This document shows positions 2,906 through 29,034 of a DNA stretch of 29,988 bases, in pieces. A program made the position numbers and the translations under genes. The stretch covers positions 1 to 29,988 of the IMG/VR virus record IMGVR_UViG_3300028844_001259. One strand, given 5' to 3'. This DNA is from a virus. Below the pieces are notes generated by a model. That model was not told the DNA's origin and ran no database searches. It was given only the letters and a program-made list of their open reading frames with translations. The stretch's first letter is position 1, and each line of letters starts with the position of its first letter.

Positions 2906-3916
2906 ATGCCTACGACTTCCGGTGTTCAGGCGGACATTCTCGCCTCCACCCTCCGCATCCTGCGCGACAAGGAGGTTGACTCAACCTTCCGCGCTATCGC
3001 TCTCCTCGACGCCTGTGACCGCGCCGGGAACATTGTCCGTGAGAACGGCGGTTCCTACGTGGACGTTCCTCTCGTCCTGACCGACCACAGCCAAGTGACC
3101 CAGCTTTCGTCGGGTTATGAAGGTGTGAACCTCGCTGTGTCGGACGTTATGCGTACCGGTACTTCCTCGTGGTGTGACGCGGTGGCTCCCATCGTCATCA
3201 CCACCAAGGAATCCCTCAGCAACAAGGGTGAGCGGGCACAGATTCGCATTGCCGAGACCCGCATGAAGCAGGTCATGGGGATGCTCCGACGCGAGATCAA
3301 CAAGCAGATCGTCGCCGGAAACTCCACCATCCTGACCGACCTCAACACCCTGAACGGTGCTGTGGCTGGTGGCTTCCTTCACGCTGCGACCTACGGCACC
3401 CAGACGGGCACCGCACAGGGCGTGGACAAGGCTGCATTCCCCGAGTCCTACCAGAACCAGTTCATCGACGCTGGCGGAAACCTCTCCATCGCTGAGATGC
3501 AGGAACTTCTCATCCAGACCAAGGTGTTCGGTCCCGAAGGCGACGTGGATATCATCCTCGCCAGCCCCGAGTCCTACGCTGTCTATCGTGGTCTTCTTGA
3601 GGACAACGAGCGGTACACCAGCATCAAGGAAATGCAGGACATGTCCGGTCGCCTTGCCCTCGTGTTCGGCGGCTCCCCGGTCTACATCGAGCCGCAGCTT
3701 TCGGGCGTCAACGGTTCCAACGGCAACCCGCTGAGTCAGTATTTCCTGAATAGTGGGCTTTTTAACCTGTACACCGACGAAGATGCGTTTTTTGAGGTCG
3801 AGCCCATGGAGTCCATCCCTGGCTACGCTTCGATGGCTGCAAACATCATCGTCCGTATGCAGTTGACCGCCAGCAACCTGAGCGGCCACGGTATCCTCAC
3901 CAACGGCAACGCATAA
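2906..3916 (+). CDS. Major capsid protein
   Basis: This 336-residue protein follows the scaffold and precedes a small decoration-like protein, which is the classic place of the HK97-fold major capsid protein. By eye it has an N-terminal helical arm (about 5-45), a beta-rich segment ending in a long helix containing the GERAQIRIAETRMKQVMGML stretch (about 108-127, E-loop/spine-helix-like), and a C-terminal domain with an NPLSQYFLNSG segment. It lacks an obvious N-terminal protease-cleaved delta domain, in agreement with a separate scaffold gene. It has the strongest ribosome binding site in the operon (AGGAGG, 5 bases before the ATG), as expected for the most abundant virion protein. Confidence 0.88.
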   Translation: MPTTSGVQADILASTLRILRDKEVDSTFRAIALLDACDRAGNIVRENGGSYVDVPLVLTDHSQVTQLSSGYEGVNLAVSDVMRTGTSSWCDAVAPIVITTKESLSNKGERAQIRIAETRMKQVMGMLRREINKQIVAGNSTILTDLNTLNGAVAGGFLHAATYGTQTGTAQGVDKAAFPESYQNQFIDAGGNLSIAEMQELLIQTKVFGPEGDVDIILASPESYAVYRGLLEDNERYTSIKEMQDMSGRLALVFGGSPVYIEPQLSGVNGSNGNPLSQYFLNSGLFNLYTDEDAFFEVEPMESIPGYASMAANIIVRMQLTASNLSGHGILTNGNA

Positions 3917-13083: not shown

Positions 13084-16000
13084 ATGGGCACGAAGCCAAT
13101 CGTATTTGAGGGTGTGACCTACACCTTCCCCGACGACGCTACTGACGACGAGATCATGGAGACACTGGGGTCATTTGAGGCACCAGACACTACAGGTAGT
13201 GTTGCACCGGAGCCAGAGGCACTACCTGTAGGGGTGCAGCCTCTCCCGGTGGGTCTGGTTGAGGCACCTGAGACTGTCCAGCCTTCCTTGTCCGTCGAGG
13301 AAGTCGTTGAGCAGGCTGTCGAGGCTTCCAAGACCGGTGAGCTTGCCCGTACACCGGAACAGCAGGCGGGCCTGACGGAACTGGCTCGCCTTGAGGCTCA
13401 GGCTGGAGCGGGTGCCCTTGTGTCTCCCGGTGGTCGGGTGGACATCCCCCCAACCGAACAGGAACAGACGGGGATCCTCCAGACCGCATACGAGTTCTGG
13501 TTCCCTGAGTCGAAGCAGTCCGTTGACGACCTTCTGAGTCGCCGTCCCACCATGACGGCTGAGGCATTGGCGAGAGCACAGGCGAAGGCATCACTGGAAG
13601 GTGAGGAGTCCTACGCTGACTACCTCCCCGACGCTATGCGGCTCTCGTTGCAGGGCGTGGAGACACCGCTGGGTGCCACCGTGCGGGTTGTGGGCGACTC
13701 TATCGCCAGTGCCGCTGAGGTAGCCGCCCGAGAGGTGCTGACCTACGAGGAAGGAGACACCGAGGACTTGTCGTACCGGGCCGAGCAGACGATCCGTGGA
13801 CTGACTGGCGACGAATACTATCCCTCGACCTTCTCTACTGGTGGTGTGCTCGGGCTTGGTCCGGTCAACAAAATCACCAGAGGAATGTTCGACCTCGATA
13901 TCGCTGAAACACCCAAGCGAGAGTTGATTGACCTCGGTGTCCCTGAGATCATCGCGGGCTTCGCCGCCGAAGGTCTGACCGTTCCCACCTTCGGGCCGGT
14001 TGACTATGCCTCCGAAGCCGCGAAGGAAATGGATCCCTACGGTCTTCGGGTGGCTGACCCAACCCTCGACTGGAATGACCAAATCGTCCGCAACGCCACG
14101 GTAGGTCGGACGATGAAAGACCTGTTTGTGGACATGCCTGAGCTACGGGAGGTCTACAAGGAACACTACGGGTCCGAGTCAGCGGCGTACTACGGTGGTG
14201 CCCTCGCAGACCTCACTATCCCAGACCTGACCTTCGTTGGAGGCAAGGTCGTCAAGGGAACCAAGGCTGCTGGGTCGCTGGTCGATGCTGGCCTCACCTA
14301 TGTCGCCGGAAGCCGTATGTTCGGTGGTCAGGTGGCCCGTGAGGCTATCCGGGGTGCCAAGAAGGGTGATGATGTCGTTGCAGCCATGGGTGAGGTGGTC
14401 GCCCGTGAGGCTGTAGGCCCCCGTGCCCTTGTCGATGCCGTTGAGATCGCCGGGGAAGAAGCCGGTGACCTTGTTCGACTCGCTGAACAGGTCGCACCCG
14501 GCTCCAAGTCGGCCCTGTGGGTTGCCAAGAAGGCTGAACAGGTCGGATTGAACCAAGCGTTCAGTGAAATGCGTATCGCTCAGGGTGTCTCGGACATTGA
14601 GCGCGTGTTTGACGCCACCATCAAGGCTACCGACGACCTCTTGAAAGCCCGTCAGGCGGCTACGAGAGTCGCGAGAGCACTTGGAGGGGGCAGCGTACCG
14701 CCCACCATGACAAAAGCCATCGAAGGGGCCTCCACGGCCCGTCAGCTACGGAAGGCTGTAGACCTTGTGGTCCCGGCAAACAAGTCCGTCCTCGATATCG
14801 GCAGGGCAGGCACCGGTTCGGCCATGCGAGCCATCTTGAACAAGGCCGACGAAGCCCTTGAGGGTGTCGGAGCAGTTGAAGGTCGGGCACGGGTCGCTGA
14901 GATGACCCGCAAGGCGCTCGGTGAGATGGTTCCCCGAGACATGGTAGCCGTGACCTCGCGTGTGATGATTCCCCGTAGGATCGCTGACGCGATGCGGAAG
15001 GCGGTCGATAAAGACCTTGCTGGGACCATCGAGCAGTCCGGTGAGGGCTTCCGGGTCGTTGCCGACAAGATCAAACCGACGCTCGCAGCCATTGAGCGCA
15101 TGTTCCCTGTGAACCTGAGATCAGATTTTTGGGATGATCTCAGCGATGCTGTCCGACAAAAACGTGATCTCAGACCTGATCAGGTTTCCAGACTCACGGA
15201 AGCACTCCAGTCGGACGCCTACCTGAGACTCGCCCGTGATCCCACGACGGGTCGGGCCTTGGGCGAAGGACTCGCCAACATTGGCAAGGAACTCGATGCC
15301 GCAGTCGGTACACCGCTCCAGCGTGTTGCCGCACGGAACATTGCGGGCCGTGTCATGGGTGCCTTCGGCGGGAACGCCAAGGGTGCCCCCGCTGTGTATC
15401 AGGAAATGGGTCGCATCATTGGCAAGGAGACGTTCGGTGTCCCGAAGCGGGTCGCTGACGCCTTGAAGGCATCCCGCAAGGCCGGTGACCCTGACCCGTT
15501 CCTGAAGGTCGGTCAAGATTTGACCGCCAAGGCTGGTCGGTTGTCCGACAACTTCATCGAGGAAGCGTGGATGAACACGCTCTCGCCCCTGTACGGACCT
15601 CTCGCTCCCGCACTGAGGCGGAACGCGGAGGTGCGCCGCATCATGGAGTCGGTGCCGTCCTCGGAGGGTCTGAGGCGCGTTGACGAGATCGCTCAGGGCC
15701 TTGCACCGGAGTCAATCCGAGAACTGGCACCCAAGGACTTCGGTTCCGCCCTCGCCAACGGTCTGTTTGAGGCGGAAGGCTGGGTCACGGTACGGAATGT
15801 CGCTCAGAGGTTCATTGAGGACAACCCCGGCATGGACCTGAGTATGACTCCCGGCCTCCGTGGGCTTGACCCGACGCAGGCGAAGGCGATGGCGTCTCGG
15901 GCGATGGCGGACATCATCGAGCAGGGCACCACCTACGCTCACGCACCCGGCTTAGACGGCATGATGGACCTCGCGCTCGGTGCGGGCACCGAAGGGGTCG

Positions 16001-17676
16001 TGATGCGTGGTGCCGACGAGGCTTTTCAGTATCAAGCGGTCCTCAACTCAGTCGGTGAAGCCCTGAGAGCCTACGGAGTCAAGTACCTCGATGAAGGCAT
16101 GGACGGTCGTGAGGTCGCCAACCGTCTTCTCGACCAGCCGGGGTCGTGGCTACAGGTTCCCGAAGAACTGAACGCCCTTTTGCTGATCCCACAGGGCGAC
16201 GTAGTGCTCCGTAAGGCTCAGGAGCTTGACGGCATGATGAAGCTCGCTGAAGCCGCAGACGTTGTGAAGCGTGCCAAGAACCCTATGGACAAGGACACCT
16301 TCACAGCAGCGTTCGGATACCTCAACGACTTCGTGCGTGCCGGTGCCGACCTCGTTTCGATGAACGAGCCGACGAGACTGGTGAAGGCCACCTTCGGCCC
16401 CGCTATCGCCGTCCTTGCCAAGCAGGGTGCCGTCAGGGCCATCGAGACAACCTTCGGTGTCGCTACCGCACCGCTCCGACGAGCAGGTAAGACCCTCGAT
16501 GACACCTTGTTTGAGGCTTCCGGTCGTCCGTGGTCACAGCGTCAGGTCAACGAGGAAGTCACCCGACTCGGTGTGGGTGCAAGCACCCGCCTGAGTTCCG
16601 CGAGGCGCGGACGGTTGGCTTCCGACCTTCTTGCCGACCTTGGGGTCACTATGGAGGGGAACAAGGCACTGGGAGGCGCACAGAGGGCCACACAGTACGC
16701 CAGCCGGTTTGCTCGTATGCTTCCGTCGATGGTGGACAAGGTGGAGCAGGCTTTCCGCCGTGAGGTCTTCACCGTTGCCTTGAAGGAGGGTCGCACACCT
16801 GAGCGTGCCGCTGAGATCGCCCGCGATGCCGTCCTCGATTTTGAGCCCGCTGGTACGGGTCGAGCAGCACGGCTTCTACAGCCGCTTGTGGCCTCCGGTC
16901 AGACGGCTGTGGCGGGTCTGGAGTCAATGTTGAGCCGTCCGCAGGAAACCATGCGGATCCTGAGAGGGATGCGAGCCAAGCAGGACTACGTTCAGCGGAC
17001 CTACGGGACCGACGAGGAACTGGCCGGGTTTGAGCTTCCGCTTGGTATGGGACGGCTCAACATGTATGGCCCGTCAGCAGCAGCCTACACAGCCGGACTC
17101 GCCGCTGACATCTACTACAAGGGTGCTGACCCGGATACGGTTGTGGACGCCGCTAAGGCTGTCGTCGGAGGCTCTGGACCGACACGAGCACTCGGTATGG
17201 TCAGCGGTGGCATTTCGACGTGGATTGAGGGTGAGCCGACCGAACTGACCAAGGACGATGAAGTCCTACAGGTCATGTTGATGGCTTCCCTTGCCGAGCG
17301 TGGCTACACCGACCCGACTGGCTTGTCTCCAATGCAGCCGTGGGACGTGTTGGTTGAGCGGTACGGTCTGGAGGCAACCAACGTCGATCCGAAGACGGGC
17401 GGTATCACCCCCATCAAGATTGGTCGCCCTGCACGGTTCGGTGAAGGTCCGCGAGAAATCGAGGCGTCCTACACCTACAAGATGACTCCCGAGGGTCGCA
17501 AGCAGTTCAAGAAGGACATGGAGTGGGCACGTACCTTGGGTGCCGACCCCCTGCTTGAAGCCTACAAAATGTACGGGGTGCAGCCGGAACTTGGGGTCGC
17601 CACAGGTGGCATGACCGAGTTGGAGGTCGCGGAGCGCCGTATGGGTGAGGAAGTGCGGAAGGCGACCGGGCGTTAG
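13084..17676 (+). CDS. Giant internal virion (ejection) protein, gp16-like
   Basis: At 1530 residues this is the largest gene and takes the gp16 place in the ejection-protein set. The N-terminus (about 5-30) carries the FEGVTYTFPDDATDDEIMET pattern, a short module often found at the start of very large phage virion proteins. Residues 35-150 are an acidic Pro-rich linker. The rest is mostly helical with several amphipathic or moderately hydrophobic segments, as for proteins that unfold through the tail and span the cell envelope. I see no convincing lytic transglycosylase or peptidase motif. A small cluster of GATC-containing repeats lies inside the gene at 15116-15184. The ATG at 13084 follows the previous stop by three bases and has only a weak ribosome binding site. 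Confidence 0.7.
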   Translation: MGTKPIVFEGVTYTFPDDATDDEIMETLGSFEAPDTTGSVAPEPEALPVGVQPLPVGLVEAPETVQPSLSVEEVVEQAVEASKTGELARTPEQQAGLTELARLEAQAGAGALVSPGGRVDIPPTEQEQTGILQTAYEFWFPESKQSVDDLLSRRPTMTAEALARAQAKASLEGEESYADYLPDAMRLSLQGVETPLGATVRVVGDSIASAAEVAAREVLTYEEGDTEDLSYRAEQTIRGLTGDEYYPSTFSTGGVLGLGPVNKITRGMFDLDIAETPKRELIDLGVPEIIAGFAAEGLTVPTFGPVDYASEAAKEMDPYGLRVADPTLDWNDQIVRNATVGRTMKDLFVDMPELREVYKEHYGSESAAYYGGALADLTIPDLTFVGGKVVKGTKAAGSLVDAGLTYVAGSRMFGGQVAREAIRGAKKGDDVVAAMGEVVAREAVGPRALVDAVEIAGEEAGDLVRLAEQVAPGSKSALWVAKKAEQVGLNQAFSEMRIAQGVSDIERVFDATIKATDDLLKARQAATRVARALGGGSVPPTMTKAIEGASTARQLRKAVDLVVPANKSVLDIGRAGTGSAMRAILNKADEALEGVGAVEGRARVAEMTRKALGEMVPRDMVAVTSRVMIPRRIADAMRKAVDKDLAGTIEQSGEGFRVVADKIKPTLAAIERMFPVNLRSDFWDDLSDAVRQKRDLRPDQVSRLTEALQSDAYLRLARDPTTGRALGEGLANIGKELDAAVGTPLQRVAARNIAGRVMGAFGGNAKGAPAVYQEMGRIIGKETFGVPKRVADALKASRKAGDPDPFLKVGQDLTAKAGRLSDNFIEEAWMNTLSPLYGPLAPALRRNAEVRRIMESVPSSEGLRRVDEIAQGLAPESIRELAPKDFGSALANGLFEAEGWVTVRNVAQRFIEDNPGMDLSMTPGLRGLDPTQAKAMASRAMADIIEQGTTYAHAPGLDGMMDLALGAGTEGVVMRGADEAFQYQAVLNSVGEALRAYGVKYLDEGMDGREVANRLLDQPGSWLQVPEELNALLLIPQGDVVLRKAQELDGMMKLAEAADVVKRAKNPMDKDTFTAAFGYLNDFVRAGADLVSMNEPTRLVKATFGPAIAVLAKQGAVRAIETTFGVATAPLRRAGKTLDDTLFEASGRPWSQRQVNEEVTRLGVGASTRLSSARRGRLASDLLADLGVTMEGNKALGGAQRATQYASRFARMLPSMVDKVEQAFRREVFTVALKEGRTPERAAEIARDAVLDFEPAGTGRAARLLQPLVASGQTAVAGLESMLSRPQETMRILRGMRAKQDYVQRTYGTDEELAGFELPLGMGRLNMYGPSAAAYTAGLAADIYYKGADPDTVVDAAKAVVGGSGPTRALGMVSGGISTWIEGEPTELTKDDEVLQVMLMASLAERGYTDPTGLSPMQPWDVLVERYGLEATNVDPKTGGITPIKIGRPARFGEGPREIEASYTYKMTPEGRKQFKKDMEWARTLGADPLLEAYKMYGVQPELGVATGGMTELEVAERRMGEEVRKATGR

Positions 17677-19840: not shown

Positions 19841-20046
19841 AGCACGGAAACCTCAACATTCCAGTCGGGCGTATCCTCCGACTGCTTACCAAAACCCTGA
19901 GAATGTCCAAGGACGGTCTGGACCGGGAGGAGCGCCGGGAACTCGGCATTGACCTCCTGCTGATCTCAGCCCATATCCTTGAAGGCATCGAACTCGATGA
20001 CCGACAAATGGGACTGTTCGATGCTGTGGCTGATACCAATGCCTGA
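19837..20046 (+). CDS. Small helical hypothetical protein
   Basis: This 69-residue protein starts at GTG 19837, which overlaps the previous stop as GTGA and has GGGGGAG about ten bases upstream. An earlier GTG at 19810 has no such signal. It is all-helical by eye, with Leu-rich amphipathic helices and a charged middle. It lies directly before and overlaps the endolysin, so it may belong to the lysis cassette, but no transmembrane segment is evident. Confidence 0.55.
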   Translation: MKHGNLNIPVGRILRLLTKTLRMSKDGLDREERRELGIDLLLISAHILEGIELDDRQMGLFDAVADTNA

Positions 20047-20497
20047 CGGAAGACCGGGAGAGTTCTTCTCGTGGAAGGAACTGACCTCCAGTGCCACAGC
20101 CTCACGGCTCGGTATGGACAACACTCCGAGCAACGAGCAGAAGGTCAACCTCAAGGCGCTGTGCAGTATGGTCCTCGACCCGCTCAGGCGTCACCTCGGC
20201 AAGCCAGTGCGTGTCACGTCCGGGTTCCGTACTGAGGCGCTGAACAAGGCCATCAAAGGCTCCAAGACCTCCGCTCACCGGTACGGACTTGCGGCGGACA
20301 TCAAGGTGACGGGGCTGGACGCCCATGCGCTTATGGAGGCGGTGATGCTCACGGACATTCCGTTCGACCAAGCCATCGCCTACGCCCCCGGTCGCGGAGG
20401 CCACCTCCACATTGGACTGAGCACCGCCCACAACCGGAAGCAGACCTTGTGGGCACCCAAGGGTGGCGGATACGAGAAGTACGACTTCTCTAAATAG
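20039..20497 (+). CDS. M15-family peptidase endolysin
   Basis: This 152-residue protein is a zinc D-Ala-D-Ala carboxypeptidase-like (peptidase M15) enzyme that would cut peptidoglycan peptides at lysis. The hallmark SAHRYGLAADI (His80, Asp87) and GGHLHIGL (His122/His124) motifs supply the zinc ligands, and SGFRTEALNKAI (about 61-72) is the usual preceding motif. There is no signal peptide and no separate wall-binding domain, so export probably needs a holin. I chose ATG 20039 because it overlaps the previous stop (ATGCCTGA). In-frame ATGs at 20021, 19997 and 19979 are alternatives with weak ribosome binding sites. It is the last gene before the terminator. Confidence 0.85.
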   Translation: MPDGRPGEFFSWKELTSSATASRLGMDNTPSNEQKVNLKALCSMVLDPLRRHLGKPVRVTSGFRTEALNKAIKGSKTSAHRYGLAADIKVTGLDAHALMEAVMLTDIPFDQAIAYAPGRGGHLHIGLSTAHNRKQTLWAPKGGGYEKYDFSK

Positions 20498-20501
20498 AGA
20501 A

Positions 20502-20529
20502 ACCCCCACCTATCGAAACAGGTGGGGGT
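20502..20529. terminator. Strong stem-loop at the convergent gene end
   Basis: ACCCCCACCT (20502-20511) and AGGTGGGGGT (20520-20529) form a perfect 10-bp stem with an 8-base loop, just after the endolysin stop and facing the end of the minus-strand unit. A second perfect hairpin, TTCTCT/AGAGAA (20486-20501), overlaps the endolysin stop. There is no long T-run on the plus side. On the minus side the stem is followed by a T/C-rich tract. It probably ends both converging transcripts. Confidence 0.85.
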
Positions 20530-20556
20530 CAGTGACACGCTCTTGGCTGGCGGCGT

Positions 20557-21294: not shown

Positions 21295-21975
21295 CTATTG
21301 AAACTTTTTTCGGGGTGTCCTGTTTTTGGGGTGAGTGCGATGACGAAGACGACGGGCAAGGTCGCGGGCGGGTTGCCTGTGCCACTCCATTAGGGCTGCG
21401 ACCATCGGCTCAGTCTCCGACATAGCCTTGACCCTTCGGTACACGGTGTCTTGGGCGCACCCCGCCGTTCTGGAGGCTTTTGCCGTGGAGCCTGCGTCAA
21501 CGTAGGCGGTGAGAACGTCGGGCCACTCAACACGCTTCAGAGCGCCCCTGAGCGAACCCTTCGACCCGGCGTCCTTGTAGACGTTGGCGAGGTGGACAAC
21601 CCACTCCTCCGCACGCTTCAGGGCGATAGACCACCGCTGCTGGGTGAGGTCGCGTTCGTGCTCTACGTTGAAGGACACCCACCGTGCCGTGCCGCGTGGT
21701 CTACCTTCCTTGTATGCGAACGAGATGACCTCCCGGTCAGGCAAGGGGAGCCACCTGACGATCCTACGGAAGTCCCGGCGTACCGGTGCCCCGTAGGGTG
21801 ACGGAGGGGCGTACATGGCTTCTACGCGGTCCTCAAGGAACCACAGGTCGTGGGGGTCGTGGACACCGGGACGGCCTCGTGCGTCCTGAGCGTCTTCCTT
21901 GGCTACCTCGTCCCAGTACCAAGCCCATGCGGGGTCATCGCTGTCGCCTACGTCGTTGGTCATTGGGGCCACCAT
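21295..21975 (-). CDS. Sigma-like / HTH DNA-binding protein
   Basis: This 226-residue protein overlaps the polymerase-helicase stop by one base (TAATG). An acidic, Trp-rich N-terminus (about 1-60) is followed by a segment whose pattern LPLPDREVISFAYKEGRP (about 76-93) and trailing helix ending ALKRAEEW resemble sigma factor region 4. A second helix-turn-helix (about 152-184, STAKASRTAGCAQDTVYRRV) follows, then a basic C-terminal tail. It could direct host RNA polymerase to phage promoters, or bind the origin or packaging site. The similarity is by eye only. Near the 3' end the frame contains A-AAA-AAG (21310-21304), a classic -1 slippery heptamer, 7 bases before the stop codon. A second in-frame ATG is at 21963. 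Confidence 0.6.
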   Translation of the reverse strand: MVAPMTNDVGDSDDPAWAWYWDEVAKEDAQDARGRPGVHDPHDLWFLEDRVEAMYAPPSPYGAPVRRDFRRIVRWLPLPDREVISFAYKEGRPRGTARWVSFNVEHERDLTQQRWSIALKRAEEWVVHLANVYKDAGSKGSLRGALKRVEWPDVLTAYVDAGSTAKASRTAGCAQDTVYRRVKAMSETEPMVAALMEWHRQPARDLARRLRHRTHPKNRTPRKKFQ

Positions 21976-24338
21976 TAGAGTTCCGCGAAGTCGATGATGT
22001 TGTCCAGCTTGTTCCCACGGTCAACCTTGCGGGCGGGAACGTCGCAGACCCACTTGCGGGTCACCCTTCCGTCCTCACGGACTGACTTGGACTTGCAGTT
22101 GAACTTCTTCAAGGTGGCGCGGATACCACGGATTACACGGGGGCGGTCGGAGGGCTTTACGTCGAGGTGTTCCAGAACTTCGTCAACGGTCACCGCGCCG
22201 CTGTGATCCCGAAGGCACTCCCAGACCGCCGAGGCGAACGGGTCGTCAGCCGTGAAGTGGTAAGCCTGACGGTTCCGTTCCGCGTCCTGAGCTTCGTTGA
22301 GCCACCACTTGTGGTCCTTGCCTTCAGCGGTCAGGTACTTGTAGAGGTCAACGGCCTCGGCCCACAACTGGTCCTTGTGTTCCTTGATGGCGTCAATGTC
22401 GATGTTCCCGACCTTGATGGGCCAGTAGCGGCGAGAGCCAGTCGGGTCGCGGAGGAAGTCGTCTTCGTTGGTCGTGGCGGCGAAGACGGTCCTACGAGGG
22501 ATGCGAAGGTCACCCTTGGCATACGGGGGCCTCACACGGTCTTCGTTCAACGAGAAGTAGTCCTTGAGGGCTTCCTGCTCCCGCTTGGAGGCACCGGCAA
22601 GCTCAGGCCACTCCACGATGGCGAACCGGGAGGCACGGAGAACGGAGTCCTTGTCAGACGGGTCAATCTGGACGGGGGCGTATGACCCGCAAGGGGCGAT
22701 GGTACGGAGCAGGGTGCTTTTCTGAGCGCCCTGAGCGCCCATGATGACCAGCATGGTGTCTACCTTGCACCCCGGTTCATAGGCGCGAGCCACGATGGAC
22801 ACGAGCCACTTGCTTCCGTACACCTTGACGAGATCGCGACCGGTCGGGGAGTCAGACAACTCCTGAGCGTTGCAGTGGTCCTCCAGCCAGCAAGCAAGGC
22901 GCTCCACACCGTCCCACTTCAGACCTTCAAAGTAGTCGAGAACCGGGTCGAACTCACGCTCGCGGGCAACGTCGAAGACCGCTGACATAAGGGTCTGCTC
23001 ACCGACGCGGAGCATCCCGTACCGTTCCTCAAGGGCCGTGAAGTACGTGCGGCGAATCAGGGTGTCGTTGGCCTCGTCGCCTCCAATGTATGCCGTGGAC
23101 TCCCGAGCGTTGAACTGGAGGGCGGGGAGGGTGGTGTCCAGCCCGACGATCCGACAAATGTTGGTGTAGTTCGGGATCCCATGCGGGAGGTCGATGGGAG
23201 CGATGGCGTTGGGATCGTGGCGAATGGCCGAGTCCGTCTTCCACGAGACGGCATCACCACGCGCCGTGATGGCCGACTTGTATGCCCGACCTTCGACGGA
23301 CGACGGGTGGTGTGCCTTGCGTGCCCGGTCAGTCTCCGACTTCATGGCACACACGGCGAGGGTGAGTCCGTGGGGATCCCCGTGGTTGGTGACCGCCTTG
23401 AGGGCTTCCGCACGGAGGGCACGACCGACCAACTGCTCCCCGTCACCACCCCACGTCTGCTTGACCTCGTACTTGACCCAAGTATCGAGGTGGTTCGTGG
23501 CTTCGTCCACGGAGCCGGTGGACTTCAGGACCATGACCTTCGCCACAGCCACAGCCAACTTGTCAGCCTTGTCGGCGGGGACCGACACGAGGATCCCGTC
23601 GTGCAGGGGGAGGACGACCCTGACGCCCGCCTCAGCCAGCCGGGGAACCGACACAGCCTCACGGAGCATGTCAGCCTCCAGACGCATCAAGGCGACCCCG
23701 GAACCGGCATACTTGCGCTCCTCCGTCACCCAGCCCTGAGACACAGCCTCGTCGCGGAGGTCAAACAGTTCCGAGTTCGCCTTGGGCCAGCGGGTCTTGA
23801 GCAGGTCACGGGCACGGTCGATGAACGCCTTGGCTTCCGGCTCGGTGAAGAACTCCGCGAGAGCTTCGTGACCACCACCGTTGAGCACGGTGTTCAGCCC
23901 AGTCTTAGCAGCCTTGCGAGCCACGCCGGGGAACTGGGTCGTGTAGAGGTCACCGGAACGAAGGTCAGCCTGCAACTGAGCGTCGTTCGACCGGAAGGCA
24001 AGGATTTGCCAGTGGGAAGCAGACCAGTCGAGGTCAACCAGAACCTCACCTTCATACGGAGAGGTGAACGCCTCGCGGAGAGGGCTACCCTTGGGGATGG
24101 ACTGGACCGGGAAGGGGGCGACGGTGTACGTCCGGTCTTCCTTCTCCGTATTCTGGCGGACGGTCAGGTCGAGCACCCCGCCGTTCATCGCGGAGAGGTA
24201 AGGCCAGTGGTCGATCCCCAAGTCCCGCATGGCGAGCAGTTGGTCGGCGTCGGCGGTTTCCTTCCACTTGGAGAGTAGCTGAGAGAGTCGGCGGGGGTTG
24301 ACACCTACCGAGAGGGCTTGAAATGGGTTATTATTCAT
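21975..24338 (-). CDS. Superfamily-A polymerase-VapE/SF3 helicase fusion (TV-Pol-like)
   Basis: This 787-residue protein (from ATG 24338, with CGGAG eight bases upstream; GTG 24425 is an alternative) joins two replication enzymes. Residues ~95-255 are a minimal PolA palm. Motif A contains D104 in VDLDWSASHWQIL. The O-helix R141-x3-K145-x3-N149-x3-N153-G154 matches R-x3-K-x3-F-x3-YG of Pol I. Motif C is HDG (H246-D247). Exonuclease and thumb domains are absent; the usual motif A Glu is His109 and the HDE Glu is Gly248. Residues ~460-650 are a VapE-type SF3 helicase: LKWDGVERL, Walker A GAQGAQKST (534-542), Walker B-like IVEWPEL, sensor-like TTNE, and GSRRYWP. A C-terminal winged helix (~700-770) may bind the origin. 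The architecture matches TV-Pol proteins, proposed to act as primase and polymerase. It is the only replication enzyme visible here. Confidence 0.85.
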   Translation of the reverse strand: MNNNPFQALSVGVNPRRLSQLLSKWKETADADQLLAMRDLGIDHWPYLSAMNGGVLDLTVRQNTEKEDRTYTVAPFPVQSIPKGSPLREAFTSPYEGEVLVDLDWSASHWQILAFRSNDAQLQADLRSGDLYTTQFPGVARKAAKTGLNTVLNGGGHEALAEFFTEPEAKAFIDRARDLLKTRWPKANSELFDLRDEAVSQGWVTEERKYAGSGVALMRLEADMLREAVSVPRLAEAGVRVVLPLHDGILVSVPADKADKLAVAVAKVMVLKSTGSVDEATNHLDTWVKYEVKQTWGGDGEQLVGRALRAEALKAVTNHGDPHGLTLAVCAMKSETDRARKAHHPSSVEGRAYKSAITARGDAVSWKTDSAIRHDPNAIAPIDLPHGIPNYTNICRIVGLDTTLPALQFNARESTAYIGGDEANDTLIRRTYFTALEERYGMLRVGEQTLMSAVFDVAREREFDPVLDYFEGLKWDGVERLACWLEDHCNAQELSDSPTGRDLVKVYGSKWLVSIVARAYEPGCKVDTMLVIMGAQGAQKSTLLRTIAPCGSYAPVQIDPSDKDSVLRASRFAIVEWPELAGASKREQEALKDYFSLNEDRVRPPYAKGDLRIPRRTVFAATTNEDDFLRDPTGSRRYWPIKVGNIDIDAIKEHKDQLWAEAVDLYKYLTAEGKDHKWWLNEAQDAERNRQAYHFTADDPFASAVWECLRDHSGAVTVDEVLEHLDVKPSDRPRVIRGIRATLKKFNCKSKSVREDGRVTRKWVCDVPARKVDRGNKLDNIIDFAEL

Positions 24339-24418: not shown

Positions 24419-24808
24419 TCAGCACAGGTCAAGTTCGTGGACCTTGGCGATGACCTTGCCGTCCTTCTCGGAGACGAAGCAACCGTTTTCGATGACGATG
24501 GCCCAAGGGAGACGACCGTGGGCGTCTTCCACGCGGACGTGGAGGGAGTTCTTCACCGAGTCGGTGACGTTGGCATATCGAATCTTGGTGACACCCAAGG
24601 TTTCCATCACGGTGCAGACCCTCGACCAAGCCAACTCGTAGTCAGCGGTCCCGGAGGACCGGATAATGGGAAGGGGGAGGAGATCACCGACGACCCGAGT
24701 GAGAACGTCGCCATAGTGGGCTGGCTCACCAAGGGTCATGCCTTCGGAGAGGTCGTCCTTCCAAGTGGAGTCGATAAGGGAGTAGGTAGTGGTGTGGTCG
24801 GTGTTCAT
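24419..24808 (-). CDS. Hypothetical protein in the replication unit
   Basis: This 129-residue protein mixes strands and helices and has no motif I recognise. The segment TADYELAWSRVCTVMETLGV (about 54-73) is helical. The C-terminal half (GRLPWAIVIENGCFVSEKDG) looks like a small beta sheet. The leader contains CAACCACAGGAACC before the ATG, the repeated minus-strand element. It starts one base after the stop of the 36-residue membrane peptide and directly precedes the polymerase gene, so a replication accessory or host-takeover function is plausible. Confidence 0.65.
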   Translation of the reverse strand: MNTDHTTTYSLIDSTWKDDLSEGMTLGEPAHYGDVLTRVVGDLLPLPIIRSSGTADYELAWSRVCTVMETLGVTKIRYANVTDSVKNSLHVRVEDAHGRLPWAIVIENGCFVSEKDGKVIAKVHELDLC

Positions 24809-25424: not shown

Positions 25425-25847
25425 GATGGGTTCCGGTGGTTGGTGGTGAGGGTCGTGGTTGCGACCTGCTCAAAGTGTAACACAGAGTTACACCCATGCA
25501 CAAGTATTTCTTCATGTAGCGGCTGGATGAAGTAGGTAACGGCGGACCGTTACGGCGGGAACGCCGTAGGCGTCGGCATCTTCGGGGTCGGTAACGGCTG
25601 TGCGGCTGTAACGGCTGGTCGCCAACTGGTAGCGACCCTCTATGTCTCCCCCCTTCTCAATCCTTCTATATATATGAACTACTAAATATTTATTGAAGTA
25701 GCCGTTACACCGTTACAGGGACGAAAAGACCCGTCAGACCGGTGCTCTCGCCGTAACGGGGGCGTAACGGCTGGCGTCACAGCCCCTCAGCGGTAGGGGC
25801 ACGGTAGCCCCCCGGTAGTAGGACCACCCTTCACCGGAGTCTTTTGT
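25425..25847. other. Divergent control region and candidate replication origin
   Basis: This 423-base gene-free region lies between divergent units. The heptamer GTAACGG occurs on the plus strand at 25536, 25591, 25608, 25753 and 25764, and its reverse CCGTTAC at 25547, 25702 and 25710. The copies at 25536 and 25547 form a perfect inverted pair with a 4-base spacer. An AT-rich tract with TATATATA and AATATTTATT (about 25665-25700) is the only low-GC stretch here and could be the unwinding element. GGTCGC/GCGACC arms (25617-25637) form another inverted repeat. Repeated binding sites beside an AT-rich tract are the standard layout of an iteron origin. Outside this region I noticed the heptamer only once (6196). 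Confidence 0.65.
25475..25493. promoter_or_regulatory. 19-bp palindrome, likely operator
   Basis: GTGTAAC-ACAGA-GTTACAC is a perfect inverted repeat with 7-bp arms, about 50 bases upstream of the first minus-strand gene. This is the size and symmetry expected for a dimeric repressor or activator. The core GTAAC is shared with the GTAACGG heptamers, so the same protein family might bind both. Candidate binders are the small regulators encoded at 24917-25198 and 20829-21239. Confidence 0.55.
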
Positions 25848-26327
25848 ATGGATTGCCCCAACTGCGGGATGAACCGCATCCCCACGAAGCAGACGATCCC
25901 TGCTGACCGGCGTGAAGACAACCGCGTCCTCCGCAAGCGGACCTGTAAGAACTGTCAGACCCACTTGATGACGCTGGAGATCCCAGCCGCAGAACTACGG
26001 GCACTGGAGCAGCAGGCACACAACATGGTGCTCTCCGAAGGGGTCGGTGCCCCTCTCCCGACTTCTCCGACCTCACCCCTGCTCGATATCGAGACTGAAC
26101 TGGAAGACCTGCTCAGGCCCAGCCTCGACGCCTTGAACGAAGTCCTGACCTCAGCCAAGGATCCGAACCGGACCAAGGTGGACACGGCACGGTGGTTGGT
26201 TGCAGACCGGAGGGAATACCGGAAGGCGCTGGCTGAGACTCACGGCGCGGACGAGTCCACTGACCCAGCCATCGCGGAACTGGCGTCCATCTTGTCCCTC
26301 GTCCCTGACGTTGAGGTGGCTGAGTGA
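25848..26327 (+). CDS. NrdR-like zinc-ribbon protein, small terminase candidate
   Basis: This 159-residue protein starts with a zinc ribbon very like that of NrdR: CPNCG at residues 3-7, then RKRTCKNCQTHLMTLE (Cys33/Cys36), in the same spacing as the bacterial regulator. The NrdR ATP-cone domain is absent. Instead there is a Pro-rich linker (about 65-80) and a helical C-terminus (about 80-150; LDALNEVLTSAKDPNRTKVD, then a helix with ARWLV). Such helical modules occur in small terminase-like proteins. It is the first plus-strand gene and overlaps the large terminase by four bases (GTGA), so a DNA-recognising small terminase is the best guess. CGGAG lies nine bases before the ATG. Confidence 0.6.
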   Translation: MDCPNCGMNRIPTKQTIPADRREDNRVLRKRTCKNCQTHLMTLEIPAAELRALEQQAHNMVLSEGVGAPLPTSPTSPLLDIETELEDLLRPSLDALNEVLTSAKDPNRTKVDTARWLVADRREYRKALAETHGADESTDPAIAELASILSLVPDVEVAE

Positions 26328-27877
26328 CCGTGTGGCTTCCGCCGAACATTCCAACGTCGCTACAGGGCAAGCTGACCACCCTGCTTGGTGACCGGGAACT
26401 GTTTTGCCGCATGTTGAAGGTCTACGACAAGCAGTTGAAGAAGAACGTGCCGCTCAACGTGTGGCCCGCTCAACGGAAGGTGTGGTCAGCCATGGACCGG
26501 TCCAACCGGGTCTTGGTCGTCAAGGCACGGCAAATGGGAATCTCGGTCGGGATCCGAGCGTACCAGTTCCACAAGGCGTTCACTTCCCTTGACCCGCTCA
26601 AGTACGCCGTCCTCTCGTTCCATGCCCGAAGTGCCACCAACCTCCGTAAGCTGGACCGGGAGTGGCTGGCCGACCTACCGGAAGCCCTGAAGCGGGACAT
26701 GTCGGTAGACTCAGCCACCGACTCACAGTTTGCCGACACCGGAGCAGGCTTCGCCGCGTTCACCACAGGTGGTCGAGGTGGTACACGGTCCTTCGTCTTC
26801 ACCGGGGCACAACTCTCCGAGTTCGCGTTCTACACGGACCCCGACGAGGTTCTTGCTCAGGTTCTTGCCACCGTGGGTGACGGACCCATCATCATCGAGA
26901 CAACGGTGAACGCCCCCGGCGATGCCTTCCACCGACTCGTTGAAGGTGCCCCGGAGAACGGCTGGGAGGTCGTCTTCCTTCCATGGTTTCAACACCACCC
27001 CTACCAGCACACCGTTCCCTCCGACTTCGCCTGTACGTCGTCTGAGCAGAAGATGAAGACCCAGCACGGGCTGACCAACGAACAGGTCTACTGGAGACGG
27101 GCACAGGTAGCCACGCTGGGTGAGCACAAGTTCCGCCGTGAGTTCCCCGCCACCCTGCAAGAGTGCTTCATCGGGGTCACCAAGTCCGCATACCTTCCGA
27201 GTGAAGCCCTTGCCGACATCGAGACAGTCCACTTCAACACGCCGTACAGGGTCTTGGAGGAAGTAGACCTTGATGACTACTACGTCATAGGCGCTGACCC
27301 CGCAGGCGGCACAGGGGGTGACTACTCGGCCATGCAGGTCGTGTCAGCCATGACGTACCAGCCGGTCTACACGGAGCGGGACAACACCATCGCCCCTCAC
27401 GAGTTTGCCGAGAGACTGGTACAGGTCGCCGCGAAGTACACGACCACCAACGGCCCGCCCTTGATCCTGTGCGAGCAGAACAACCACGGCCATGCCGTCC
27501 TCCGTGAACTGGACACTCTCGGCTACAAGAACGTGTGGACCGACGCCAACCGGAAGCCGTGGGTGACCACACACAAGTCGAAGATTGACGCCTATGACAC
27601 GCTGAGAGAGTTCGTCATCAACGGGATGATCTTCAGGCTCGACCAGAGCACCTTGATGGAACTCCGGTCCCTGCAAATCCTCAAGGTAAGCCCTGAAGCC
27701 CCCGCTGGCCTCCACGACGACCTCGCTATGTCCCTTGCCCTCGCCTACCGTGCCCTACGGGACGTTCCACGTTCCAAGCGTAGAGAAGCGGTAGGGGCAC
27801 GTATGGAGAGCATGATGTCGAACGTGAAGGCTCGCAAAACACGCGCCCGCCGCCTCCCTTGGAACGTAAGAAGCTGA
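26324..27877 (+). CDS. terL: Terminase large subunit
   Basis: This 517-residue DNA-packaging motor has an ATPase domain with a Walker A-like VVKARQMGIS (about 65-74, with the KxRQxG variant usual for terminases), a Walker B/catalytic Glu region FTGAQLSEFAF (Glu166), and a coupling-motif-like IIIETTVNA (189-197). The RNase H-like nuclease follows with Asp325 in GADPAGG, Glu384 in LCEQN and Asp465/Asp466 in HDDLAMS. It cuts and pumps DNA into procapsids through the portal. The GTG start overlaps the previous stop. Headful packaging would suit the circular permutation implied by the terminal overlap, but the packaging type cannot be fixed from sequence alone. Confidence 0.92.
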   Translation: MTVWLPPNIPTSLQGKLTTLLGDRELFCRMLKVYDKQLKKNVPLNVWPAQRKVWSAMDRSNRVLVVKARQMGISVGIRAYQFHKAFTSLDPLKYAVLSFHARSATNLRKLDREWLADLPEALKRDMSVDSATDSQFADTGAGFAAFTTGGRGGTRSFVFTGAQLSEFAFYTDPDEVLAQVLATVGDGPIIIETTVNAPGDAFHRLVEGAPENGWEVVFLPWFQHHPYQHTVPSDFACTSSEQKMKTQHGLTNEQVYWRRAQVATLGEHKFRREFPATLQECFIGVTKSAYLPSEALADIETVHFNTPYRVLEEVDLDDYYVIGADPAGGTGGDYSAMQVVSAMTYQPVYTERDNTIAPHEFAERLVQVAAKYTTTNGPPLILCEQNNHGHAVLRELDTLGYKNVWTDANRKPWVTTHKSKIDAYDTLREFVINGMIFRLDQSTLMELRSLQILKVSPEAPAGLHDDLAMSLALAYRALRDVPRSKRREAVGARMESMMSNVKARKTRARRLPWNVRS

Positions 27878-27879
27878 CC

Positions 27880-29034
27880 ATGCACTACTACACCCACGAA
27901 GAACTTGACGGCGCAACACGAGCCAGCCTGAACGGGTTTGCTCGGTCAGCCAAAATCCACGGTCGCAGCAAGCTCAAGGTCAACGAACTGAGGGATGCCC
28001 TCCGAAAGCAGTTGCCGCCCCGTGAAGGCACCTCCCCCGGCTTGTTCGTGGAGTTGTGTGCAGGCACGGCTGCTCTCAGTTTGAGGCTACACAAGGAGCA
28101 GGCAAAGCCCCCGGTCAGCCGTATGGGATCCAAAGCGGGATACGCCAATACGATCCTACATGAGCTTGGGCTTTACCCCGGCCTCAAGGCAGACCACTAC
28201 CTGTGGTGTGAGCCGGACGACGGGTGCCGCCTGCTGCTTGAAACCTACCGTAACCACGACCTCGCCACTGCAACCGCCGAAATCATAAGGGGCTGGAAGG
28301 ACGAAGACCCGAAGGCCCTGTGGACAAGGCTGCGCAAGGAAGGCCCCGTCGTGGCACCGACCCCTCGCGAGACAGCACGCTGGACGCTGGCGCTACCCGG
28401 TGGCGCGTGGACAGCGATGCCGCCGAAGGCGATGTTCAAAGGACCGGGCTGCTTGGACGGCAGAACAACCACCCCTCACGCTGCGTCAACAGTCGCAGAC
28501 CGGTACGAAGACCTTGACGAACTGCCCGGTGAGATCACAGACGGGGCTGTAGATCCCCGTGAGGTGGCGCGGTGGTGCGTGTCTGAGGCTTGGACAATGT
28601 GTGATGCTAAGCCGATATATTCAGGACCGGGAAGGCAGGAAGGGGTTGTAAAATGGCAGACGCTTCCCGGCCTTACAGCCCGCCTATCCACCCTCCCCAC
28701 TCTCCCCGCTGAGATCACCGACGAGGCTGTAGAGCCGCCCCTGCTCCCGCCGAATACCGTGGTCTACATTGACCCGCCTTACGTCAACACGACGGGCTAC
28801 AAGCACGACCTCGGACGTGACCGGGTAGTAGAACTGGCGCTGGCGTGGCACGCTGCTGGGGCTACCGTCTGCATCTCGGAGCAGGAGGCCATCCCTGAGT
28901 TGGTTGCTCAGGGCTGGCGGTCTGTCGATATCACTGGCAAACGTCAGGGACAAAAGCGTACATTCAGCAAACAGAAATCGGAATACCTCACGGTCTCCCC
29001 GACCCCCTTGGAACATGAGAAGGTAGCCCCATGA
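27880..29034 (+). CDS. D12-like adenine DNA methyltransferase with duplicated middle region
   Basis: This 384-residue protein (ATG 27880, two bases after the terminase stop) opens with a small helical domain (about 5-46) resembling SAP/Rho-N DNA-binding modules. The SAM-binding motif I is FVELCAGTAALSL (56-68) and the catalytic motif IV is DPPY (298-301), as in N6-adenine methyltransferases. The GSK-type motif (SRMGSKAGYA, 80-89), which precedes motif I in Dam-like enzymes, here follows it. Residues 162-224 and 226-284, in the recognition-domain position, look like two diverged copies (PRETARW/PREVARW, KGPG/SGPG, LPGEITDGAV/LPAEITDEAV). It probably protects phage DNA from host restriction. 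Its place between terminase and portal is unusual. The stop overlaps the portal start (ATGA). Confidence 0.8.
   Translation: MHYYTHEELDGATRASLNGFARSAKIHGRSKLKVNELRDALRKQLPPREGTSPGLFVELCAGTAALSLRLHKEQAKPPVSRMGSKAGYANTILHELGLYPGLKADHYLWCEPDDGCRLLLETYRNHDLATATAEIIRGWKDEDPKALWTRLRKEGPVVAPTPRETARWTLALPGGAWTAMPPKAMFKGPGCLDGRTTTPHAASTVADRYEDLDELPGEITDGAVDPREVARWCVSEAWTMCDAKPIYSGPGRQEGVVKWQTLPGLTARLSTLPTLPAEITDEAVEPPLLPPNTVVYIDPPYVNTTGYKHDLGRDRVVELALAWHAAGATVCISEQEAIPELVAQGWRSVDITGKRQGQKRTFSKQKSEYLTVSPTPLEHEKVAP

Follow-up and report, generated by a model that had tools for sequence, protein, structure and literature searches.

What must a polymerase that depends on a primer give up before it can start chains de novo? 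The question is opened, for one protein, by a locus in IMG/VR virus record IMGVR_UViG_3300028844_001259 (positions 1 to 29,988; this whole stretch of 29,988 nucleotides is the window in what follows), the genome of a small, previously undescribed phage. On its minus strand, at 21975..24338, lies a gene for a 787-residue protein, P0001, in which a family-A polymerase palm is joined to a VapE-type superfamily 3 (SF3) helicase. In this palm the residues that select deoxyribonucleotides and hold the primer are replaced while the catalytic ones are kept, and the domain sits in the slot that VapE genes usually give to a primase. We find it somewhat easier to believe than to doubt that the fusion is a primase-helicase initiator, in which a palm related to actinophage PolAs takes the place of a TOPRIM or Prim-Pol domain and the host replicase carries out elongation.

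The palm and fingers span some 225 residues (about 75-300), the segment at residues 75-275 (23514..24116, minus strand) being the one assigned from Pfam, PHROG, AlphaFold2 and Foldseek. Pfam DNA_pol_A matches the palm at E 3e-6 (26.8 bits, under the curated cut-off of 34.3), a PHROG DNA polymerase profile matches it at E 6e-12, and phmmer with the palm alone against Taq polymerase gives E 2.5e-6; by such sequence comparisons the homology of both the palm and the helicase half is beyond chance. An AlphaFold2 model of residues 1-310, from an alignment built with 31 relatives, has an O-helix at 141-152 and strands at 98-105 (motif A), 241-245 and 248-254 (the last two around motif C); its predicted local distance difference test (pLDDT) scores are 80-97 for residues ~90-220 and 64-84 for residues 230-270. 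In a Foldseek search with this model, Taq and Klenow came out on top (E 2e-10, probability 1.00). The superfamily-A palm fused to a VapE/SF3 helicase that a first-pass annotation had read from the letters is borne out, although the predicted palm fold around D104 and D247 is supportive rather than independent evidence, because the alignment behind it consisted entirely of PolAs. Residues 1-74 gave no reliable model, the helices predicted at 5-39 having a pLDDT below 50. The closest palms found are those of actinophage PolAs (mycobacteriophage, Thermobifida phage and Streptomyces phage records), with further relatives in 69 IMG/VR loci and in prophages of Segniliparus, Streptomyces and Kitasatospora. 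A tree that included 11 cellular Pol I sequences put P0001 on the phage side with support of 99/95; its exact place there is unsure because its branch is very long, at ~6-8 substitutions per site where the median is 0.43.

How much of the polymerase has survived such divergence was read from a comparison with 56 relatives, in the residue numbering of E. coli Pol I. Six residues that are invariant or nearly so among the relatives are kept, namely R69 (R668), D104 (D705), R141 (R754), K145 (K758), H246 (H881) and D247 (D882), and the catalytic Asp pair (D104, D247) and the triphosphate-binding Arg and Lys (R141, K145) are invariant in a 32-sequence alignment as well. Six others are replaced: E710 by His109, N845 by Gly214, Q849 by Met218 and E883 by Gly248 (each original residue present in 56/56 relatives), F762 by Asn149 (55/56) and Y766 by Asn153 (Tyr or Phe in 56/56). 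On the minus strand, Asp104 of motif A lies at 24027..24029, with H109 at the steric-gate position; the O-helix, residues 141-154, with R141 and K145 kept and N149 and N153 in place of the aromatics, lies at 23877..23918; and motif C, His246-Asp247-Gly248, at 23595..23603. The exchange of the motif A Glu for His and of both O-helix aromatics for Asn had been noticed at first pass and holds in this alignment; the loss of three more contacts, N845, Q849 and E883, all invariant in the relatives, goes beyond it. The fusion lacks an exonuclease domain, as had been claimed, and also the palm hairpin (TGRRL) and the greater part of the thumb. Only Tyr, Phe or Leu has been described at position 762 of viral PolAs (PMC6302109, PMC13228545), and Asn, as in the fusion, is not among them. 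Ribonucleotides are kept out by Glu710 as steric gate, with residue 762 as helper (PMC13228545). Judged from the residues kept and lost, catalysis and triphosphate binding have been spared, whereas sugar choice, base stacking and the grip on the primer terminus have lost the residues responsible for them.

To what has this palm been joined? The helicase half (residues 436-771, 22026..23033, minus strand) matches the Pfam VapE-like family (PF05272) over residues 471-691 at E 8e-62, and has the Walker A Lys, an acidic Walker B, the sensor Asn and the Arg finger; K540, E576, E579, R615, N624, R636 and R637 are common to all 86 VapE relatives aligned. In the Walker A motif, GAQGAQKS (534-541, 22716..22739, minus strand), Q539 stands for the last Gly, which is not alarming since ~40% of the 86 relatives lack that Gly as well. 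Several of the nearest VapE helicases in IMG/VR have a separate primase gene just upstream or a primase fused at the N terminus. The slot before VapE holds TOPRIM in four loci (L016, L019, L025, L031) and, more weakly, in a fifth (L020), and Prim-Pol in another (L061, E 7e-38); no N-terminal family was recognised at L018, L022, L026 or L036. Because the nearest VapE genes carry TOPRIM or Prim-Pol there, the palm of P0001 sits where a primase usually is. No PolA palm turned up in the VapE loci surveyed, the best 80 out of more than 591 in IMG/VR, and none of 72 PolA loci had a VapE helicase nearby.

Among 50,697 phage records no entry covered both halves of the fusion at E values up to 10, a palm search found no fusion in 72,556 plasmids, none was found in a sample of 396 actinobacterial genomes, and a direct protein search of bacterial genomes returned no relative. 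An IMG/VR motif scan for the fusion matched only two near-identical contigs; five other matches to the motif C pattern LP.HDG..VP were all non-polymerase reading frames. The IMG/VR and genome scans depended on short stretches of conserved peptide, and a palm this diverged is a poor target for tblastn; in searches thus broad rather than exhaustive, we found no second case of a PolA palm and VapE in one chain, nor of a PolA palm with these six replacements.

The open reading frame (ORF) of the fusion also occurs, intact, in another two IMG/VR contigs of its species (L003 and L004, ~99% identical and from other assemblies), which rules out an assembly chimera. Amino-acid changes between strains number 3/9 and 4/12 in the whole gene and 1/5 and 2/8 in its palm part, small counts in which a codon with several changes was counted once, and fall below the neutral 74%, consistent with a functional protein. 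In L004, residue 157, in the fingers adjoining the O-helix, is Trp in place of His, all three bases of the codon having changed between these near-identical strains. The motifs first quoted, D104 in VDLDWSASHWQ, R141-x3-K145-x3-N149-x3-N153-G154, H246-D247-G248, GAQGAQKST (534-542) and GSRRYWP (634-640), are all at the residues given for them in the 787-residue translation; the strand had been left unstated, and the plus strand of 21975-24338 contains stops. An in-frame GTG at 24425 would give 816 residues, and the ATG at 24338 is preferred because a GGAG precedes it at the usual spacing. The window has an exact direct terminal repeat of 144 bp, so the genome is complete, with 29,844 bp of unique sequence in agreement with the ~29.8 kb first reported, and it has no nucleotide relatives among the 50,697 phage records. 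PHROG and Pfam scans of nearly all its other sizeable ORFs recognised capsid, scaffold, terminase, a D12-like methylase, an M15 peptidase and several unknowns; they recognised no second polymerase, primase, helicase or single-stranded DNA-binding protein, and the first-pass claim that no other polymerase or primase is visible stands.

What, then, might the fusion do? The palm has probably been turned into a primase, because its eroded core is joined to a helicase where relatives carry one, and the failure to recognise any other primase in a complete genome supports that role. The lost N845 and Q849, the lost palm hairpin and the truncated thumb argue against processive extension, and a palm of ~225 residues, with no exonuclease and no primer-template minor-groove contacts, suits the part of a primase better than that of a processive replicase. 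A candidate origin lies at 25536..25770, upstream of the leftward operon that includes the fusion gene and between it and the packaging genes: GTAACGG, the genome's most clustered 7-mer, occurs there 8 times within 235 bp, counting both strands, out of 10 copies in the genome (the largest 7-mer cluster in 60 shuffled genomes was 6). An AT-rich stretch inside this array (25655..25700, 78% A+T) is a candidate unwinding element, and L003 and L004 have the same sequence throughout 25425-25860. We infer priming by the palm, binding of the origin and elongation by the host, in the following order. The VapE part would form a hexameric ring on the iteron-like array or close to it, open the AT-rich stretch and start translocating. 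On the strand thus laid bare the palm would synthesise short primers, from which the host replicase would carry on, as it does in P4-type systems. Elongation could fall to host Pol III, by analogy with other primase-helicase elements.

Several points weigh against this proposal. The family-A polymerase CCPol primes only with its partner MP, and no partner was recognised for the fusion. The joint loss of E710, F762, Y766 and E883 could mean a weak or dead polymerase. The GTAACGG copies, though they look like the iterons of an origin, could instead be an operator array for a regulator. Use of the host replicase is an assumption.

The same replacements allow a different account of the palm, as an RNA-polymerase-like enzyme or a primase permissive of ribonucleoside triphosphates (rNTPs), in which loss of the steric gate allows RNA primers; this is possible, and we would hold it tentatively. 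Motif A of the fusion, D-x-S-x-S-x-x-Q, may be nearer to that of T7 RNA polymerase than to that of Pol I. The gate E710 has become His and its helper F762 Asn, residues whose roles have been described (PMC13228545), which makes rNTP use by the palm plausible on sequence grounds. However, priming by CCPol-MP requires deoxyribonucleoside triphosphates (dNTPs; PMC7581432), and His109 may itself act as a gate.

Unlikely, in our view, is a single-protein replisome, in which the helicase would unwind the DNA and the palm would both start the chains and copy the genome in full, with no host polymerase. The fusion is indeed the only replication enzyme recognised in a complete genome, and Sputnik was described without a replicative enzyme besides its TV-Pol-D5-like helicase (PMC2579912). 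Single chains of wide competence exist, too: GP55 of phage 1706 unites helicase, primase, exonuclease and a family-B polymerase (PMC12205980), and Pas55 of phiAsp2 has primase-like, helicase-like and PolA regions. GP55 and Pas55, however, retain a complete polymerase and exonuclease, which the short palm of the fusion, with its truncated thumb and lost N845 and Q849, does not, and the lack of a second enzyme in the genome does not mean that a host enzyme goes unused. Because most of the thumb, the exonuclease and the primer contacts are gone, a self-sufficient replicase for 30 kb is the less likely, and the terms 'single-protein replisome' and 'sole replication enzyme' used at first pass claim too much for a palm whose primers host Pol III could elongate. 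The notion that the palm is catalytically dead and serves in DNA binding or structure, with host DnaG priming and the VapE part acting as initiator helicase, earns little credence, since despite six lost substrate contacts and a very long branch, both metal-binding Asp and the equivalents of His881, Arg754, Lys758 and Arg668 have outlived extreme divergence, and amino-acid changes in the palm (1/5, 2/8) are rarer than the neutral expectation.

One-chain polymerase-helicases are not new, as GP55, Pas55 and the PolA-SF3 fusions attest, the last of these known as PolA-S3H in polinton-like viruses and virophages (PMC11071308). The argument used above, that a palm standing in the primase's place has displaced it, led Iyer et al. 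2008 to predict prim-pol activity for TV-Pols (PMC2579912). TV-Pol-D5-like proteins (Sputnik V13, PMC2579912) and PolA-S3H (PMC11071308) likewise have a minimal family-A palm, lacking an exonuclease, on the N-terminal side of an SF3 helicase. The likeness was judged by the published TV-Pol feature list (PMC2579912): the beta-hairpin Arg (R69), D104, D247, the fingers Asp (D130) and R141/K145 are present, and where a two-helix thumb might be sought, the model has helices at 5-39 with a pLDDT below 50. The helicase of TV-Pol proteins is D5-like, related to the VapE type of the fusion but different from it, and the fusion has no nuclease. TV-Pol and PolA-S3H proteins belong to eukaryotic viruses or bacterial mobile elements, whereas P0001 belongs to a tailed phage and so lies beyond the eukaryotic viruses, in which fusions of this kind are common, and its palm is nearest, of those found, to actinophage PolAs. 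Ma-LMM01, searched for a TV-Pol, yielded only its ordinary PolA.

CCPol, a TV-Pol member and the family-A polymerase of SCCmec, makes DNA primers de novo when bound to MP (PMC7581432); it and the PolA-SSB primases of Bacillota elements (PMC7581432, PMC10061031) resemble the fusion in placing a family-A polymerase beside the helicase of a mobile genetic element, where they act as DNA primase. In CCPol-MP, however, polymerase, OB-fold partner and helicase are separate genes and the polymerase domain is described as full, whereas P0001 is one chain with an eroded nucleotide pocket. The small OB-fold partner adjoins the polymerase in CCPol-MP; what adjoins the fusion gene, just upstream in the same operon (24419..24808, minus strand), is a 129-residue protein with no PHROG or Pfam family match and an AlphaFold2 pLDDT of 46, its fold not interpretable.

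Pas55 (Actinoplanes phage phiAsp2, 1415 residues, NC_005885, L204:13305-17552), annotated only as a putative DNA polymerase, joins a primase-like region (DUF3854 and a PHROG primase), a helicase-like region assigned by motif reading and PHROG matches, and a full PolA. Its order, primase, helicase, PolA, is opposite to that of the fusion; it has an exonuclease region and an intact QIHDE motif C, unlike the fusion, and no similarity was seen between its helicase-like region and the VapE domain of P0001. The phage proteins divPolA1 and divPolA2 (PMC11348598) likewise have diverged PolA palms, with the thumb truncated or lacking and the exonuclease inactive or absent, but they are not fused to a helicase and are found alongside a regular DNA polymerase. 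The alpha protein of phage P4 and the VapE-type primase-helicases also unite primase and SF3 helicase in one chain, with TOPRIM or Prim-Pol as the priming domain where the fusion has a PolA palm.

To our knowledge, nearly all known primases are DnaG or archaeo-eukaryotic primase (AEP) proteins, and we know of no family-A polymerase shown to act as a primase other than CCPol-MP, which needs its partner. It is conceivable, though we advance it with some diffidence, that an actinophage-type PolA palm has become a partner-independent, single-chain primase, possibly accepting ribonucleotides and coupled to an SF3 helicase, in convergence with the PolA-S3H replicases of virophages. If true, this would be a third priming route besides DnaG and AEP, and one without an MP-type partner.

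The remaining genes give the setting. Overlapping the stop of the fusion gene is the start of a 226-residue protein (21295..21975, minus strand) with a weak C-terminal similarity to a helix-turn-helix domain (Pfam HTH_29, E 0.007, below cut-off), and a strong terminator-like hairpin on the same strand (20501..20530, a 13-bp stem followed by a T-rich tail) probably closes the leftward early operon. ORF 25848-26327, immediately ahead of the large terminase, has an N-terminal NrdR-like zinc ribbon (Pfam E 1e-4, below cut-off) and is perhaps the small terminase. A methylase-like protein (FVELCAGTAALS, DPPY) with weak D12 methyltransferase matches is encoded at 27859-29034, between the terminase and a portal-like gene. 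The 1530-residue protein of 13084-17676, for which PHROG gave no match and Pfam none above its cut-off, is probably a virion protein, and the Peptidase M15 of 19979-20497 (Pfam E 5e-17) is probably the endolysin. The terminase (26324-27877) and capsid (2906-3916) resemble those of Roseobacter, Bradyrhizobium and Myxococcus phages at ~25% identity, so that the signals of relatedness conflict, the palm being of actinophage type and the terminase and capsid not.

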